DNA from: Crocinitomicaceae bacterium
GTDB lineage: Bacteria > Bacteroidota > Bacteroidia > Flavobacteriales_D > Crocinitomicaceae
Length of the DNA stretch: 48,761 nucleotides
Assembly (NCBI GenBank): GCA_029251865.1
Contig: JAQXCN010000068.1
Location: forward strand, 1-48,761
Direction: 5' to 3'
Positions 10,598 to 48,761 of the stretch are shown in pieces; positions within the stretch are counted from its first letter, which is position 1; every line of letters begins with the position of its first letter. A model generated the notes under the pieces. That model made no database searches, was not told the origin of the DNA, and saw only the letters and a list, made by a program, of their open reading frames with translations. Both the position numbers and the translations under genes were made by a program.

Positions 10598-10810
10598 ATG
10601 ATCTCGACTAAAAAAAGAAGCCTAAACGAAATTAGACAAACAAAAGACTCCTTTTATGAGGTTCCTAATCTTAACAAAAAAAGTGTCGCAGAAGAAGTCA
10701 TTGAGGCTTATCTTAATCACCCAGGGGCACCTAATGAAATCTCGAAAGAAAACGTCAACGATTTTATAAAGTTTCTGAACATGAACCGTTACAAAATTAC
10801 TCAAGAATAA
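10598..10810 (+). CDS. Small conserved-looking protein upstream of amt
   Basis: A 70-residue soluble, helix-rich protein (MISTKKRSLNEIRQTKDSFY at the start, NDFIKFLNMNRYKITQE at the end) with no signal peptide or membrane segment. I do not recognise a family. Its stop is immediately followed by the amt ATG, and the strong promoter above it is the only one visible for both genes, so they share a transcript. The position resembles that of glnK in amtB-glnK operons, but there is no PII fold signature such as a T-loop tyrosine, so it is not PII. A regulatory link to ammonium transport is only suggested by context. An alternative upstream TTG start (10571) is disfavoured because it lies within the -7 box. 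Confidence 0.65.
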   Translation: MISTKKRSLNEIRQTKDSFYEVPNLNKKSVAEEVIEAYLNHPGAPNEISKENVNDFIKFLNMNRYKITQE

Positions 10811-12106
10811 ATGAGTTCTAGCATAGGTCGTAAAATCAATTTTATCTTCCTTGCTATCGTTGTCTTTCTAATTTTGATTGGCAACAAAACCTACGACTAT
10901 AACGTTTCTGAGCAAGCTATTGACAGTGGCGATACTGCATGGATGCTTGTATCAAGTGCCTTTGTACTCTTGATGACTCCTGGCCTCGCCTTCTTTTATG
11001 GAGGAATGGTAAATGTCAAAAACATTATCTCAACAATGCTTCAAAGCTTTGTTGCTCTAGGTGTAATTACTGTCGTGTGGGTCTTTGTTGGTTTTAGCCT
11101 TTCGTTTGGAGATAGTATCTATGGTATTATTGGCAACCCAACAACCTTTTTGTTTTTTGAGAATGTGACCCTTGCCCCGAATCCAGAATATGGCCCTACC
11201 ATCCCTTTTTTACTTTTTGCCTTTTTTCAATTAAAGTTTGCCATTATTACACCAGCACTAATTTCAGGTAGTTTTGCTGAGCGCATTCGTTTCAGAAGCT
11301 ATATTCTTTTCATGCTCCTTTTCACCTTACTTATATACACACCGCTTGCACACATGACGTGGCATCCTGAAGGATTATTTCGAAGATGGGGTGTTATTGA
11401 CTTTGCAGGTGGAACGGTTGTTCACATGTCTGCGGGTCTTGCGGCACTTGCTGGTGCCTTGTTCCTAGGAAAGCGAAAAACTATTATCGAGAAACCCGCA
11501 AATATCCCGTTCGTAATTCTGGGAACAGGATTGCTTTGGTTTGGATGGTTTGGATTCAATGCTGGTTCCGCTTTAGGGGCTAATTTCGATGCAGTTGTTG
11601 CATTTGCAAACACAAATGTCGCTTCAGCAACGAGTATGATTACCTGGATATTTTTTGACCGCTTTACAAATCGAAAAATGTCAGCAATCGGAGCGTGCAT
11701 TGGAGCGATTGTGGGCCTCGTTGCTATTACACCTGCCGCAGGAGTCGTCACGCTTGGGCAGAGTATGTTTATTGGTTTTGTGGCGGCATTAATTAGTAAT
11801 TTGGCGATTCGGCTCTTTAGAAAGCTCAATATTGACGACACCTTAGACGTCTTCCCTAGTCATGGGATCGGTGGGATTACCGGAATGATATTAACTGCTT
11901 TGTTCGCTTCGGAGGTTGGCCTAATCTATGGTGAAACTGAGACCTTTGTAATGCACCTTGTCGCCATTTTACTTGTTGTTGTTTACACATTAGCCATGAG
12001 CTATTTTTTGTTTAAGATCGTAAACCTAATAACACCCCTAAGGGTTCGAGAGGATCAAGAAGAAAGAGGCTTGGATGCTTCTCAACATGGAGAACACTTT
12101 TTATAG
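10811..12106 (+). CDS. amt: Ammonium transporter
   Basis: The 431-residue polytopic protein of the Amt/MEP/Rh family carries an N-terminal membrane anchor followed by the signature DTAWMLVSSAFVLLMTPGLAFFYGG. The paired pore histidines lie in GGTVVHMSAG and FPSHGIGGITG. It moves ammonium across the inner membrane as a trimer, and the cytosolic C-terminus (ERGLDASQHGEHF) retains the conserved tail that tunes channel activity. It is transcribed with the small gene directly upstream. Its stop is only 2 nt from the stop of convergent hflX, with no terminator between, so transcripts probably overlap. No glnK/PII gene is adjacent. Confidence 0.97.
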   Translation: MSSSIGRKINFIFLAIVVFLILIGNKTYDYNVSEQAIDSGDTAWMLVSSAFVLLMTPGLAFFYGGMVNVKNIISTMLQSFVALGVITVVWVFVGFSLSFGDSIYGIIGNPTTFLFFENVTLAPNPEYGPTIPFLLFAFFQLKFAIITPALISGSFAERIRFRSYILFMLLFTLLIYTPLAHMTWHPEGLFRRWGVIDFAGGTVVHMSAGLAALAGALFLGKRKTIIEKPANIPFVILGTGLLWFGWFGFNAGSALGANFDAVVAFANTNVASATSMITWIFFDRFTNRKMSAIGACIGAIVGLVAITPAAGVVTLGQSMFIGFVAALISNLAIRLFRKLNIDDTLDVFPSHGIGGITGMILTALFASEVGLIYGETETFVMHLVAILLVVVYTLAMSYFLFKIVNLITPLRVREDQEERGLDASQHGEHFL

Positions 12107-18129: not shown

Positions 18130-19107
18130 ATGGCGGAAGCAACAGAACCCATTCTTCAAGAAAACAACAATAGATTTGTTCTTTTCCCAATTCAACATGA
18201 TGACATTTGGTCTTTCTATAAACGGAGCGAAGCAAGTTTTTGGACAGCTGAAGAGATTGATCTATCACCAGATCTTATCGATTGGGAAAACAAACTGAAT
18301 GATGATGAAAAACACTTCATTAAACATGTATTGGCCTTTTTTGCAGCATCTGATGGTATCGTAAATGAAAATTTAGCAGAAAACTTTCTGGCTGAAGTTC
18401 AATATACTGAAGCTAAATTTTTCTACGGATTCCAAATTGCCATGGAAAATGTTCACTCTGAAACCTATTCATTATTAATAGACACCTATATCAAAGACAC
18501 AGCAGAAAAGAAAAACCTTTTTAATGCTATTGACACTTTGGATTGCGTAAAGAAAAAAGCAGACTGGGCATTGAGGTGGATTGATAAAGGTTCTTATGCA
18601 GAACGACTAGTTGCATTTGCAGCTGTAGAAGGAATTTTCTTCTCCGGCTCTTTCTGTTCAATATTTTGGTTGAAAAAAAGAGGTCTAATGCCTGGATTAA
18701 CATTTTCAAATGAATTGATTTCAAGAGATGAAGGATTGCACTGTGATTTTGCTTGCCTCTTGTACACAAAACATTTGACGAATATGTTGCCCAAAGAACA
18801 GGTAGCAGGAATCATACAGGATGCCGTTGAAATTGAAAAAGAATTTGTTACAGATGCGCTTCCTGTAAGATTAATAGGAATGAATAGTGATTTAATGTCC
18901 CAATACATAGAGTTTGTAGCTGACAGACTTTTGGTCGAGCTTGGAAATGAAAAGATATACAATGCTACAAACCCATTTGGGTTTATGGAAATGATTTCGA
19001 TTCAAGGTAAAACTAACTTTTTCGAGAAAAGAGTTGGGGAATACCAAAAGGCAGGTGTCCTTTCTGGAGACAATAGCCAGACATTCAGCACGGATGAAGA
19101 TTTTTAA
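18130..19107 (+). CDS. nrdB: Class Ia ribonucleotide reductase, beta (radical) subunit
   Basis: This 325-residue protein resembles eukaryotic R2 more than E. coli NrdB. Metal ligands and the radical residue are visible: Asp75 in [11 protein letters not shown], then Glu106, His109 and the radical Tyr113 in [10 protein letters not shown], followed later by [10 protein letters not shown] for the second half of the di-metal site. The C-terminal tail QTFSTDEDF matches the peptide that docks on the alpha subunit. It generates the tyrosyl radical needed to reduce ribonucleoside diphosphates to deoxyribonucleotides. It is transcribed after a long structured leader and followed 23 nt later by nrdA. 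Confidence 0.97.
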
Positions 19108-45143: not shown

Positions 45144-46910
45144 ATGAAAAGCTTAAAATTCACTTTAACCTTCACGCTTTTATTTATTTCTCTTTACAAT
45201 TTTTCACAATCAAATACACTCGTTGTTTTTGCCCAAGACCCAACGCCATTTTATGTTGTTTTGGATGGTGTGAAAAAGAATGAAGTCGCAGAAACGAGAG
45301 TTGTCGTTCCCGGAATAAGACAAACAAACAGCAATGTTCAAATCTATTTCAAGGATGAAAGCATAGCGTCTATAACTAAAAACATTTGGTGGGATGAGGG
45401 GCATAAAAATGACGAGGTTACCTTTCGTATTGTACCCGTAAAAAGGGGTTATAAGCTCCGTTTTTTCAGCACTGTGCCAAATAAAGTAACTCCAACGACA
45501 CTCCCTACCACTGCAGTAGTCGTAGGGAGTGCAGTTACAGCCCCTGTATCTTTGGTGGGGTGTTTAAATCCTGTTCAGGATATGGGAAGCATTATGGCTG
45601 CCATTGACGATGAAAGCTTTGATGAAGGGAAAATGACTTTGGCAAAGCAAGCGACATCAAAAAAGTGTTTAACCGTAGATCAAATCAAACAAATTATGGA
45701 TGAATTTAGTTTCAGCAAAAACAAGCTTGACTTCGCTAAATATGCCTATACGCGATGCTACAATCCAGATGATTATTATCAAGTAAATGCTGCTTTTGAT
45801 TTTAGCTCGGATAAAGAAAAGCTAAACGAATACATAGCGTCAACGCCATTAGCTGCCGCTCCAGTAGCAGTATCACCTCAGACAACCCAAAATGTACAAT
45901 CCACAACAACAACTGTTGTTACTGAAACAACAACAATAAATAACAACGGCAATACAAATACAGGCAACACAAACATGAATAATGCGGTGACAAATAGCAA
46001 CGCAAATGTAAATAGTAATATGAATGCTGGTGTTAACATGAATGTAAATTCAGGTACAGGCAACACGAACATGAATAATGCGGTGACAAATAGCAATACG
46101 AACGTAACTGGTAATATGAATACTGGTATTAACATGAATGTAAATTCAGGTATAGATATGAACGCAGAAGGAACTGTAAACAATTCGCCTGATATGGTTG
46201 GCGGCACGATTAGTATGAATATAAACATGAATGATGGAACCAACATGAATACGGGTAATGAAAACATGAACATGAATATGAACATCAACATGAATGATGC
46301 GAATATGAATGCAGTAAACCCCCCTAATACCGGTAATGTGTCTGTAAATATGAGTGTAAACGAAGGCTACAACAATACAGCAGTTCCTACAAATGGACAA
46401 ATAAGTATTAACATAAATGACCAGAACATAAATGATGCGAATAGCAACATGAATGTTAACATGAACGTGAATGAAGGTGTTACATCAAATTCAAGCCAAG
46501 TCAATAATGCGTCGAACACAACCAATATGGCTGTCAATGAAACTGTAACGACTACCACAACGACTACCACTATTAATGAAGCACCTGTTGTCAACGCAGC
46601 CCCGGTATCAGCAGGAGGATGCGTAAACCCTGTGCAAGATATGGCAGCAATTATGGCGGCAATTGATGACGAAAGTTTTGATGAAGGAAAGATAATTGTG
46701 GCTAAACAAGCAACCTCAAAAAAATGCCTGACTGTTGATCAAATCAAACAAATTATGGAAGAATTTAGCTTTAGTAAAAACAAACTTTCATTTGCAAAAT
46801 ATGCATACAAAAGATGTTACAACCCTGATGATTATTACCAAGTAAATGGTGCTTTTGACTTTAGCTCGGACAAAGAGGAAATGAACGAGTTTATCAACGA
46901 CCAAAATTAA
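45144..46910 (+). CDS. Protein with two DUF4476 domains joined by an Asn/Met-rich linker
   Basis: A 588-residue secreted protein with a signal peptide (TLLFISLYNFSQS). The first DUF4476 domain spans about residues 140-232 (CLNPVQDMGSIMAAIDDESF) and the second about 493-588 (CVNPVQDMAAIMAAIDDESF); they are nearly identical, indicating duplication within the gene. The 260-residue linker is dominated by Asn, Met, Val and Thr in patterns such as NMNMNMNIN. It is probably flexible and exposed. DUF4476 is common in Bacteroidota envelope proteins and has no established role. Transcription ends near the perfect hairpin downstream. Confidence 0.85.
   Translation: MKSLKFTLTFTLLFISLYNFSQSNTLVVFAQDPTPFYVVLDGVKKNEVAETRVVVPGIRQTNSNVQIYFKDESIASITKNIWWDEGHKNDEVTFRIVPVKRGYKLRFFSTVPNKVTPTTLPTTAVVVGSAVTAPVSLVGCLNPVQDMGSIMAAIDDESFDEGKMTLAKQATSKKCLTVDQIKQIMDEFSFSKNKLDFAKYAYTRCYNPDDYYQVNAAFDFSSDKEKLNEYIASTPLAAAPVAVSPQTTQNVQSTTTTVVTETTTINNNGNTNTGNTNMNNAVTNSNANVNSNMNAGVNMNVNSGTGNTNMNNAVTNSNTNVTGNMNTGINMNVNSGIDMNAEGTVNNSPDMVGGTISMNINMNDGTNMNTGNENMNMNMNINMNDANMNAVNPPNTGNVSVNMSVNEGYNNTAVPTNGQISININDQNINDANSNMNVNMNVNEGVTSNSSQVNNASNTTNMAVNETVTTTTTTTTINEAPVVNAAPVSAGGCVNPVQDMAAIMAAIDDESFDEGKIIVAKQATSKKCLTVDQIKQIMEEFSFSKNKLSFAKYAYKRCYNPDDYYQVNGAFDFSSDKEEMNEFINDQN
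45961..46152 (+). repeat. Tandem 96-bp repeat, two copies
   Basis: Units 45961-46056 and 46057-46152 are highly similar direct repeats of 32 codons, beginning CAGGCAACAC and ending CAGGTA, inside the Asn/Met-rich linker. Copy number may vary between strains. Confidence 0.9.
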
Positions 46911-46918
46911 TAATCACT

Positions 46919-46965
46919 AGATCAAAATAAATGACCTCATCACAAAATGATGAGGTCATTGATCT
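46919..46965 (+). terminator. Bidirectional hairpin terminator
   Basis: A perfect 13-bp inverted repeat (46930-46942 with 46948-46960, loop CAAAA) is extended by AGATC/GATCT at the outer ends. It lies between the convergent DUF4476 gene and the short ssb gene and overlaps the last codon of the latter. A T-rich run follows it only on the minus-strand side, so it acts best for ssb. Confidence 0.8.
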
Positions 46966-47251
46966 CTATTTCCGAGAACATTTTGCGGTTGCCCCGATCG
47001 TGGTAAAAACGACTCACAATTCTACCTTCAATGGCTACTGAGGTGCCTTTTGTACCATATTCATTTAGGACCTGAACCCATCTACCCCAAGCCGATAGCG
47101 TATGCCAATTTTTGCGTGTTTTTTTTGTGCCTTCGGCATCTAAATAACTCTCTTGTGTGGTAAGGGTAAACTTCACCTGACGCCTGCCATTAGACAGCAG
47201 GTGAAGCTCTGGACTCGAATGAATTTCACCAATAAGGTGTACCAAGTTCAT
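46940..47251 (-). CDS. Short single-stranded DNA-binding protein (SSB-like)
   Basis: The 103-residue protein has an SSB-type OB fold (NLVHLIGEIHSSPELHLLSN, then WHTLSAWGRWV and VAIEGRIVSRFYHD). It ends at NDLIIL directly after the last beta strand, so it lacks both the flexible linker and the acidic DIPF tip that recruits partner proteins. It starts within the stop of the longer ssb gene (1-nt overlap), so the two are coupled and may form mixed tetramers. It is not the usual housekeeping SSB. Confidence 0.85.
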   Translation of the reverse strand: MNLVHLIGEIHSSPELHLLSNGRRQVKFTLTTQESYLDAEGTKKTRKNWHTLSAWGRWVQVLNEYGTKGTSVAIEGRIVSRFYHDRGNRKMFSEIEINDLIIL

Positions 47252-47607
47252 TACTCGGCTGCCTCCCCTTTATGTGGAGAAGACAACACCAAAAACTCAT
47301 TGGCCTCAACCACGGTTCTGTTCTTACGCTCGCCGGCTTTAGTTTCATAGGTTTGGTGTAAAAGACGGCCTTCAACCATAACCTTGCTTCCCTTTTCGAG
47401 TGCTTCTCGCATCTTGTCGCCTAATGGGCCCCAAGCATTCACGTTGTGCCATTGTACCTGTTCGTCCCATTCACCATTCTTTTGTTTGTAACGCTGGTGG
47501 GTAGCCATGCTAAATTTTGTGATTGACTTTCCTGAGTCAAAGGATACCGTTTCGGGATCTCTTCCTAATCGCCCAATCAAACTGACTTTGTTTCGTAATG
47601 CATTCAT
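47251..47607 (-). CDS. ssb: Single-stranded DNA-binding protein
   Basis: This 118-residue SSB has the standard N-terminal pattern NKVSLIGRLGRDPETV, then WHNVNAWGPLGDKM and VMVEGRLLHQTYETKAGERK. It ends in SPHKGEAAE without the acidic DIPF tip typical of housekeeping SSB, so it may not recruit the repair and replication partners of that protein. It is the first gene of a two-ssb operon, divergent from a tyrosine recombinase. Whether it is a second, accessory SSB of this genome cannot be told from the window. Confidence 0.93.
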   Translation of the reverse strand: MNALRNKVSLIGRLGRDPETVSFDSGKSITKFSMATHQRYKQKNGEWDEQVQWHNVNAWGPLGDKMREALEKGSKVMVEGRLLHQTYETKAGERKNRTVVEANEFLVLSSPHKGEAAE

Positions 47608-47637
47608 AATATAAAAATTTAATAGTTAAAAAAATTG

Positions 47638-47773
47638 CTTGTCGCTAAATTCGACAGGACAAAATTGGGGGCAATCAAAAGTCATAAGCGGTTACTTGTC
47701 GTTTAGTGTCGATATTTAGTCGTTTGTAATTGATTAACGCGCGAATACTTGATCTAATTTCTAGACGTTTGTA
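47638..47773. promoter_or_regulatory. Repeat-rich region between ssb and the recombinase
   Basis: A hairpin TGTCG/CGACA (47640-47656) and several related motifs lie here: TTGTCGTTTAG at 47696-47706, TAGTCGTTTGTA at 47717-47728 and TAGACGTTTGTA at 47762-47773. The last abuts the recombinase start codon. They may be protein-binding or recombination sites, or shared divergent-promoter elements. Confidence 0.4.
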
Positions 47774-47775
47774 CC

Positions 47776-48600
47776 ATGAACTTCACAGAAATAAAGCAAA
47801 AGCTTCGTTACAAAAGATATAGCCCAAATACAATCAGTACATACATCTCATGTTTAGAGCAGTTTAATCGTTTCATTGAGAGAGAGAAATTACAGATTAA
47901 TGAGCCTGTTATTTATCAATACCTTATGGGACTTGTAGCAAAAGGGTATTCGCGCAGTTCTCAAAACCAGCATATCAATGCGATTAAGTTTTATTTAGAA
48001 AAGGTACTAAGGCAAAAACAAAAGTCTTATTATATAGAGCGCCCTCTTAAGAAAAAAATGCTCCCTACCGTATTAAGTGAGCAAGAAATTCAATTGATCT
48101 TCTCCAATATTAAAAACCTAAAACACAAAGCAATTCTATCTCTTATATACTCTTGTGGTCTGCGTATTGGCGAGGCATTAAACCTTACCATAAACGACCT
48201 TGATAGTGACAGAATGCTCATCTCTATTCGAAGTGGAAAAGGAGAAAAAGACCGTATGGTTCCCATGGCTTCAAATGTTCTTAAACTACTGCGTGTCTAT
48301 TATAAAGAATATAAGCCCGTTAATTATTTATTCAACGGCAACGACAACAGCCCCTACTCTGCAACAAGCGTTAGGAATGTTTTGAAGCGCGCAGTATATA
48401 AATCATATATTAAGAAAAACGTCACGCCGCATACCCTGAGACATAGCTATGCCACCCACCTCCTAGAGAAAGGGACCGACCTAAGATTCATTCAAGTTAT
48501 TCTTGGGCATTCCAGTGTAAAAACAACAGAAATTTATACGCATGTCAGCACTAAAAATTTACGAGCCATCAAGAGCCCTATCGAGGAAATGCAGCTGTAA
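47776..48600 (+). CDS. Tyrosine recombinase/integrase
   Basis: A 274-residue tyrosine recombinase with a SAM-like N-terminal DNA-binding domain (RYSPNTISTYISCLEQFNRF) and a complete catalytic set: Arg in CGLRIGE, Lys in SGKGEKDR, His and Arg in HTLRHSYATH, His in LGHSS and the nucleophile Tyr in TEIYTHVS. The N-terminal domain is of the type also found in integron integrases, but the extra integron-specific insertion is absent, so it is not a typical IntI. No attachment site pair or other mobile genes are seen. It could serve a small element or chromosomal inversion. Confidence 0.92.
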   Translation: MNFTEIKQKLRYKRYSPNTISTYISCLEQFNRFIEREKLQINEPVIYQYLMGLVAKGYSRSSQNQHINAIKFYLEKVLRQKQKSYYIERPLKKKMLPTVLSEQEIQLIFSNIKNLKHKAILSLIYSCGLRIGEALNLTINDLDSDRMLISIRSGKGEKDRMVPMASNVLKLLRVYYKEYKPVNYLFNGNDNSPYSATSVRNVLKRAVYKSYIKKNVTPHTLRHSYATHLLEKGTDLRFIQVILGHSSVKTTEIYTHVSTKNLRAIKSPIEEMQL

Positions 48601-48668
48601 AAGGGCTTCACAATGGAAAAATAAAGATGTATCTTTAGCCCTACGTTGTAAGCAATTGAAGAATCCAA

Positions 48669-48761
48669 ATGAGTGAATTAGAAAAAATCCTAAATATCGA
48701 AAATGACTCCAACCTTAAGCACTTTAAAAAAGGTGAATTCATTCAACAACCGAATCAATTA
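48669..48761 (+). CDS. Crp/Fnr-like regulator, N-terminus only
   Basis: The first 31 codons are visible before the window ends. The segment LKHFKKGEFIQQPNQ resembles the start of a cyclic-nucleotide-binding domain of the Crp/Fnr family. A near-consensus -7 box (TATCTTTA, 48630-48637) lies 31 nt before the ATG. The helix-turn-helix is not in the window, so this is provisional. Confidence 0.5.
   Translation, partial: MSELEKILNIENDSNLKHFKKGEFIQQPNQL

Follow-up and report, generated by a model that had tools for sequence, protein, structure and literature searches.

Why two small single-stranded DNA-binding proteins (SSBs) should be encoded back to back with a tyrosine recombinase, and what that recombinase acts upon, are the questions raised by the 3' end of the Crocinitomicaceae DNA analysed here (the window, a stretch of 48,761 nt that is the complete contig C28 of the 86-contig assembly of its own genome, G000). 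The original prediction was of two coupled tailless SSBs, divergent from the recombinase and possibly forming with it a dedicated module for single-strand recombination. The gene arrangement so described is indeed there. The shorter SSB gene (ssbS, 46940-47251, minus strand, 103 aa) and the longer one (ssbL, 47251-47607, minus strand, 118 aa) share one nucleotide (TAATG), both products match the Pfam family PF00436 (75 and 101 bits, respectively, with a cut-off of 26), and the C-termini (...EINDLIIL and ...SSPHKGEAAE) lack an acidic tip of the DDxPF type. The Pfam match spans residues 1-100 of the 103 in ssbS, so that the shorter protein does stop directly after its SSB domain, as had been noticed. 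Across the divergent promoter region (47608-47775), a 274-aa tyrosine recombinase is encoded on the plus strand (47776-48600), with a Phage_integrase match (PF00589, 149 bits) and an N-terminal SAM-like domain in Pfam. What the prediction missed was the place of this recombinase at the head of an integron. On the other side of the pair, an inverted repeat (46927-46963, 16-nt arms, 94% complementary), perhaps a terminator, lies between ssbS and the gene for a 588-aa protein (45144-46910) in which two DUF4476 matches flank a long Asn/Met-rich repeat region; in a related locus, L071, the stretch similar to this protein is split into several ORFs.

Judging from the sequence of this locus and its relatives, we consider it very probable that the window closes, at its 3' end, with the platform (integrase gene plus attI site) of a chromosomal integron in which a non-canonical integrase, from a family that lacks the I2 insertion, goes together with a matching type of attC. 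The recombinase gene is adjacent to an attI site (48601-48647, plus strand) containing the palindrome TAAAGAT-GT-ATCTTTA (48622-48637) and a crossover point at G48645|T48646. From 48646 to 48761 runs, on the same strand, the 5' end of a first gene cassette (TTGTAAG...), which is cut by the contig end and holds 31 visible codons of an ORF starting at 48669, with no Pfam match. Because the window contains attI and only 116 nt beyond its crossover point, the local array is out of view; a contig end just past attI is what repeats would be expected to produce. The boundary itself can be traced in related loci: homology with the window past the recombinase stop ends in L072 one base beyond CG|TT (48645/48646), the L073 contig terminates exactly at the CGTT of attI, and the own-genome copy L010 continues for about 10 nt past the attI point into a similar cassette start.

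Arrays are visible where relatives, and other contigs of the same genome, offer more downstream sequence. On a 2.2-Mb contig of the relative G017, palindromes of about 50 bp are repeated 3' of the homologous recombinase; every unit opens with GTT and closes with one such palindrome, in which a 7-nt left box reverse-complements the bases at the unit's start, a relation that marks a circular cassette. In the relatives, as well as on contigs C21 and C40 of the own genome, the arrays thus combine palindromic attC sites with R'' boxes complementary to the cassette 5' end at G|TT, and in the relatives cassettes and attC sites keep one orientation. Of 37 cassettes from four arrays, 30 showed perfect R''/R' complementarity at all four positions that vary (20,000 shuffles gave a mean of 4.3 and a maximum of 15), as did 26 of the 30 cassettes from eight named loci (shuffled mean 4.3, maximum 13).

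For cassette detection, the walk along R''/R' boxes was used together with an attC covariance model built from nine sites, which, being of the same kind, make the model favour look-alikes. In the single-contig genome G038, the 20 matches of the model (E <= 0.5) share one strand and follow the recombinase, and the next 20 kb have none. Among 80 named loci, 11 contained a total of 41 sites (E <= 0.01), of which 40 lie on the recombinase strand 3' of the gene, the exception being L191. Arrays are present in Flavobacteriales, Cytophagales and other Bacteroidota, and their hosts include Winogradskyella ursingii (L159), Seonamhaeicola aphaedonensis (L165), Zunongwangia mangrovi (L193), Algibacter onchidii (L173, Flavobacteriales) and Rufibacter (L172, Cytophagales). 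At the same threshold, 7 of 23 loci with a recombinase or remnant gave matches, four of the seven having supplied training sites; many of the loci where the model found nothing have little downstream sequence or belong to distant relatives. The attC sites are mutually related, and most comparisons are on draft genomes. One tree subclade (L029, L086, L094, L096, L097, L099, L100, L103 and L104) gave no match at E <= 0.01 in 0.3-3.8 kb of downstream sequence, and may therefore use other attC types. An Rfam scan returned no attC-like family among its matches at the gathering threshold.

The G038 array contains 32 forward and 4 reverse ORFs, and 9 of the 10 ORFs scanned have Pfam matches; the products include a D12 methylase, a uracil-DNA-glycosylase-like protein, a cNMP-binding protein and a group II intron reverse transcriptase, the intron lying at the far end of the array (L116 8305-9916, minus strand). 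In the own genome, attC sites occur on C21, C40, C49 and C82, with complete cassettes on C21 and C40 (1.8 kb), a census that is incomplete, as 150 of the 556 candidates were scored and C40 escaped that search. The C21 locus (L112, G000:C21:1-12000, minus strand) has a second attI with only the last integrase codons (approximately 247-274) and lies beside a tRNA cluster; behind this attI, a complete cassette of 2.7 kb carries three genes, for a cNMP-binding protein, a zinc-binding dehydrogenase and a DJ-1/PfpI protein. Two attC intervals are far longer. That in L119 (3938-14136) spans 10.2 kb and its boxes match at 7/7 positions, and that in L111 (G000:C40) spans about 18.7 kb between sites at 92-142 and 18825-18876, with boxes matching at 6/7 positions plus a wobble (GTTGTAT to GTACAAC); either these are giant cassettes or they are arrays with unrecognised sites. 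In L071, the Rfam DUF805 RNA (RF03081, 82.5 bits) is found at 10806-10873, 16 nt inside a cassette start, which means that cassettes can carry this orphan RNA along as their leader; the seven other array stretches held no further match to it.

The integrase itself departs from the canonical IntI. The IntI-specific I2 insertion of about 41 residues is absent from all 21 aligned family integrases, and the interval between R160 and H219 comprises 59-60 residues in every one of them, compared with 101 in 28/28 canonical IntI of the phylum and 63-67 in five Xer proteins. The window integrase aligns to the IntI4 structure (PDB 2a3v) except in one stretch, where IntI4 is longer by about 43 residues, and in its AlphaFold model (mean pLDDT 86.4) the segment from residue 179 to 196 is free of helices at least four residues long. 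It scores 206.8 bits with TIGR02249, under the cut-off of 265, the best-scoring stretch of the family proteins ending near position 180 of the 315 in the model, and 223.8 bits with NF040815, over the cut-off of 220. On the grounds of its I2 region and its TIGR02249 score, this sequence is that of a non-canonical integrase.

Such an enzyme could in principle be an unrelated integrase of Xer or phage type that merely stands beside arrays moved by another enzyme, for example the host's own XerC/XerD or an IntI of canonical type acting in trans. Its best curated name is XerA-like (NF040815), its predicted structure matches XerA (PDB 5hxy) and IntI4 about equally (Z 22.9 and 22.5), and the array in L112 has no intact integrase. 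Yet, in loci from several families, the arrays consistently start downstream of the recombinase, and the attI boundary is conserved together with the gene. Canonical IntI passes the cut-off in 105 of the 395 genomes sampled from the phylum, but TIGR02249 gave no match over its cut-off in any of 12 genomes (11 with the family integrase and G026 with a remnant). In a tree of 35 proteins (with 11 of the 28 IntI included and two of the five Xer proteins dropped), the family and IntI together split from XerC/D at 100/99, and the window recombinase did not group with the host XerC/XerD; the own genome has two further Xer-like genes of full length. With these observations, an unrelated integrase seems to us highly improbable. 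The IntI clade is supported at 100/100, and the family is not strictly one clade, the long-branched L106 lying beside IntI. By its sequences, the tree is compatible with I2 having been lost or never having been present.

If I2 was lost, the family might be a degraded canonical branch whose integrase is inactive or residually active and whose arrays are fossils. Broken copies do occur, as remnants in L070, L009 and L010 and with an internal stop in G018 and G049. Against decay, however, the residues that we take from family knowledge to be catalytic (R130, K155/K158, H219-x-x-R222, H245 and Y254 in the 274-aa protein) are invariant in 21/21 aligned family integrases, and both the attC stems and the R''/R' complementarity have been kept. 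Cassettes have also been duplicated exactly, over 1,390 bp in L071 (G017) and 787 bp in G038 with 0 differences each, suggesting recent movement; a further duplication of 460 bp in G038 has 2 differences. We therefore give the fossil explanation hardly any credence and retain that of an integron with a non-canonical integrase. One of the remnants, L009 (G000:C20, match 72563-72661), is a decayed integrase 3' end adjoining a 59-aa ORF with a SEC-C motif.

The attC sites of the family differ from canonical ones in how their arms are paired. We compared 64 family sites (60 unique cores), of which 40 came from the 44 matches of the scan that included G038, 22 were the best of the 41 from the 80 named loci and two came from the 23-locus scan; L123:1-47, L123:4816, L125:10076 and L116:10077 were dropped from the 44. 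For the canonical set, chains in three of ten canonical loci of the same phylum supplied 17 sites (8 of the 10 chain members being used in L239, while L244 lost two of its five members and L245 one of its seven, as their boundaries looked wrong). A bulge is present in 22/60 family sites vs 16/17 canonical sites, a count unaffected by the choice of strand. Extra bases on the 5' and 3' arms number 16 and 13 in the family and 41 and 3 in the canonical set, where the strand was chosen by the place of the extra bases, so that the 5'-arm excess is partly by construction. The family sites are thus without the one-sided extrahelical bases by which a canonical attC is recognised.

Instead, most of them carry mismatches of a particular kind. 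Family sites contain 104 A.C mismatches, whereas there is no A.C among 13 mismatches in canonical sites, and in the ungapped register 95 of the 144 inner family mismatches set an A of the 5' arm opposite a C of the 3' arm. One A.C alone says little, being found in 51/60 family sites, 10/17 canonical sites and 157/340 random AAC...GTT segments in that register. Two A.C exactly 5 bp apart, by contrast, occur in 37/60 family sites (from 15 loci), 1/17 canonical sites and 9/340 of the random segments; the exact double pattern is absent from 23 of the 60 family sites, six of the 60 being short cores. On the bottom strand the A.C positions become G.T wobbles, and folding predictions give this strand the greater stability in 57 of 61 cases, so we infer a simple way of favouring the bottom strand without extrahelical bases.

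Taken together, it may be that the integrase connects attI with hairpin attC sites of circular cassettes at the G|TT point of each, the attC sites presumably being folded single strands, and that this joining would build one-way arrays. The A.C pairs five bp apart would let the bottom strand fold better and so set the orientation. The integrase gene is transcribed toward its cassettes, as in Treponema. The two tailless SSBs would in this scheme be host accessories divergent from the integron.

In an attI beside the integrase, a G|TT crossover, R''/R' boxes, palindromic attC sites and one-way arrays, the window family resembles canonical chromosomal integrons; unlike them, it has an integrase without I2 and attC sites that mostly have paired A.C mismatches in place of one-sided extrahelical bases. 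Treponema-type integrons (PMC3607928) can be likened to the window in the direction of integrase transcription; the window integrase differs in lacking I2. Archaeal integrons likewise form attC-hairpin arrays outside the classic hosts, although their integrases have, as PMC9668308 states, the IntI-specific additional domain that is missing here. The archaeal XerA (PDB 5hxy, NF040815) is similar to the window integrase in length and fold, and the XerA_Arch cut-off is passed. XerA serves in chromosome dimer resolution at dif, whereas the window family heads cassette arrays with attI.

The absence of I2 matters in view of its assigned role. According to Escudero et al. (2020; PMC7790495), I2 docks the extrahelical bases of attC and thereby blocks the second strand exchange, and the gain of I2 has been proposed to enable the use of single strands, intermediates being lacking. 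A large survey used the additional domain or patch to pick out the integrases of integrons (PMC2426708), so that a group without I2 would be missed. Bacteroidota integrons as such have already been reported (PMC8618304 and PMC9668308), and for Bacteroidetes proper the IntegronFinder 2 paper names a single complete integron, that of Salinibacter (PMC9024848); a further paper, PMC8565304, concerns SOS motifs of Bacteroidetes. Nor is the broad link of such proteins to integrons new, given that NCBI entitles NF040815 'site-specific tyrosine recombinase/integron integrase'. What we have not found described is the missing I2 together with this attC type: titles and abstract openings revealed no published account of such integrons, subscription papers and preprints being outside the scope of that search. 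We lean, if narrowly, towards a widespread and undescribed class of Bacteroidota integrons in which single-stranded attC hairpins are captured without the I2 helix and the pair of bottom-strand G.T wobbles is read instead of extrahelical bases, be it as the missing intermediate on the way to integrons or as an independent solution. A natural integrase without I2 that heads real cassette arrays makes the question of I2 and single strands directly testable, and the family points to an unread pool of cassettes in environmental Bacteroidota.

It remains to place the SSB pair. A second, tailed ssb was sought in the genome and found on contig C50: the 147-aa product ends in ...NDDELPF with an acidic tip, so the pair is not the sole ssb locus and is probably not the replicative SSB. 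Across the genus, SSB genes stand in tandem, two or three together, with a DDxPF-type tip in none of those read; a third short SSB gene often follows ssbL-ssbS (L074-L081, L087, L089 and L108). Among accessory SSB paralogues such as SsbB, some are tailless. The window pair is like SsbB-type paralogues in consisting of short SSBs beside a separate tailed one, and differs from them in being a tandem pair or triple within one Bacteroidota genus. The two SSBs look like ordinary accessory SSBs of the host, which in this subclade are divergent from the integron.

The other possibility is a dedicated unit, in which the tailless SSBs would keep attC strands usable for the integrase. The divergent layout would suit it, the intergenic region being largely conserved in G000, G032 and G017, and SSB is reported to open attC hairpins (PMC8946536). 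Conservation of the trio of two ssb genes and recombinase is, however, poor: among 21 ssb loci fetched from 20 relatives in the genus, a recombinase or remnant is present at five (L071, L072, L073 and L086, the last with the recombinase on the same strand about 1 kb away, and L070 with a 3' remnant), and none was seen at the other 16, where a few contigs stop soon after the pair (for example, L083 and L084). When 19 sources, of which 17 were pair loci, were scanned with the attC model, no match reached E <= 0.1. Neither the scanned loci outside the genus nor the 80 named loci had an SSB near the recombinase, and the only SSB matches close to one in that scan (L118, L123 and L124) all belong to the genus. 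In 36 same-genus relatives, at least two SSB matches were found in 10/10 integrase-bearing vs 19/26 integrase-free genomes (Fisher p = 0.15), a table that counts all SSB matches without separating the pair. As the pair mostly occurs without a recombinase, the proposed SSB-recombinase module is weak, and we regard such a unit as unlikely; single-strand recombination as a theme survives in that the recombinase system's expected substrates are folded single strands. As accessory host proteins, the pair may coat incoming or exposed single strands.

The repeats of the intergenic region also fit the reading of a host ssb locus. The original prediction had described the region as repeat-bearing, and repeats are present, but they are weak, amounting to three direct-repeat pairs of 10-17 nt that are 82-90% identical (6-nt seed). 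By eye, they are CGA(C) units recurring every 10-11 bp and reading toward ssbL; since similar units, again judged by eye, precede ssbL in seven of the nine relatives inspected (unclear in L078 and L082), they are probably part of the ssb promoter. A regulon behind these units was considered and rejected: the pattern occurs once in the own genome, and ten genomes gave 18 matches (four at ssb loci) vs 16 for a reversed control. In G017 there are two integron platforms, L071 and L072, each with an SSB pair and an integrase, an arrangement that would itself suit a dedicated unit. The partners have diverged differently: relative to the window, one platform has SSBs 95% and an integrase 53% identical, and the other has SSBs 73-78% and an integrase 85% identical, which looks like an exchange of integrase genes next to the SSB genes.
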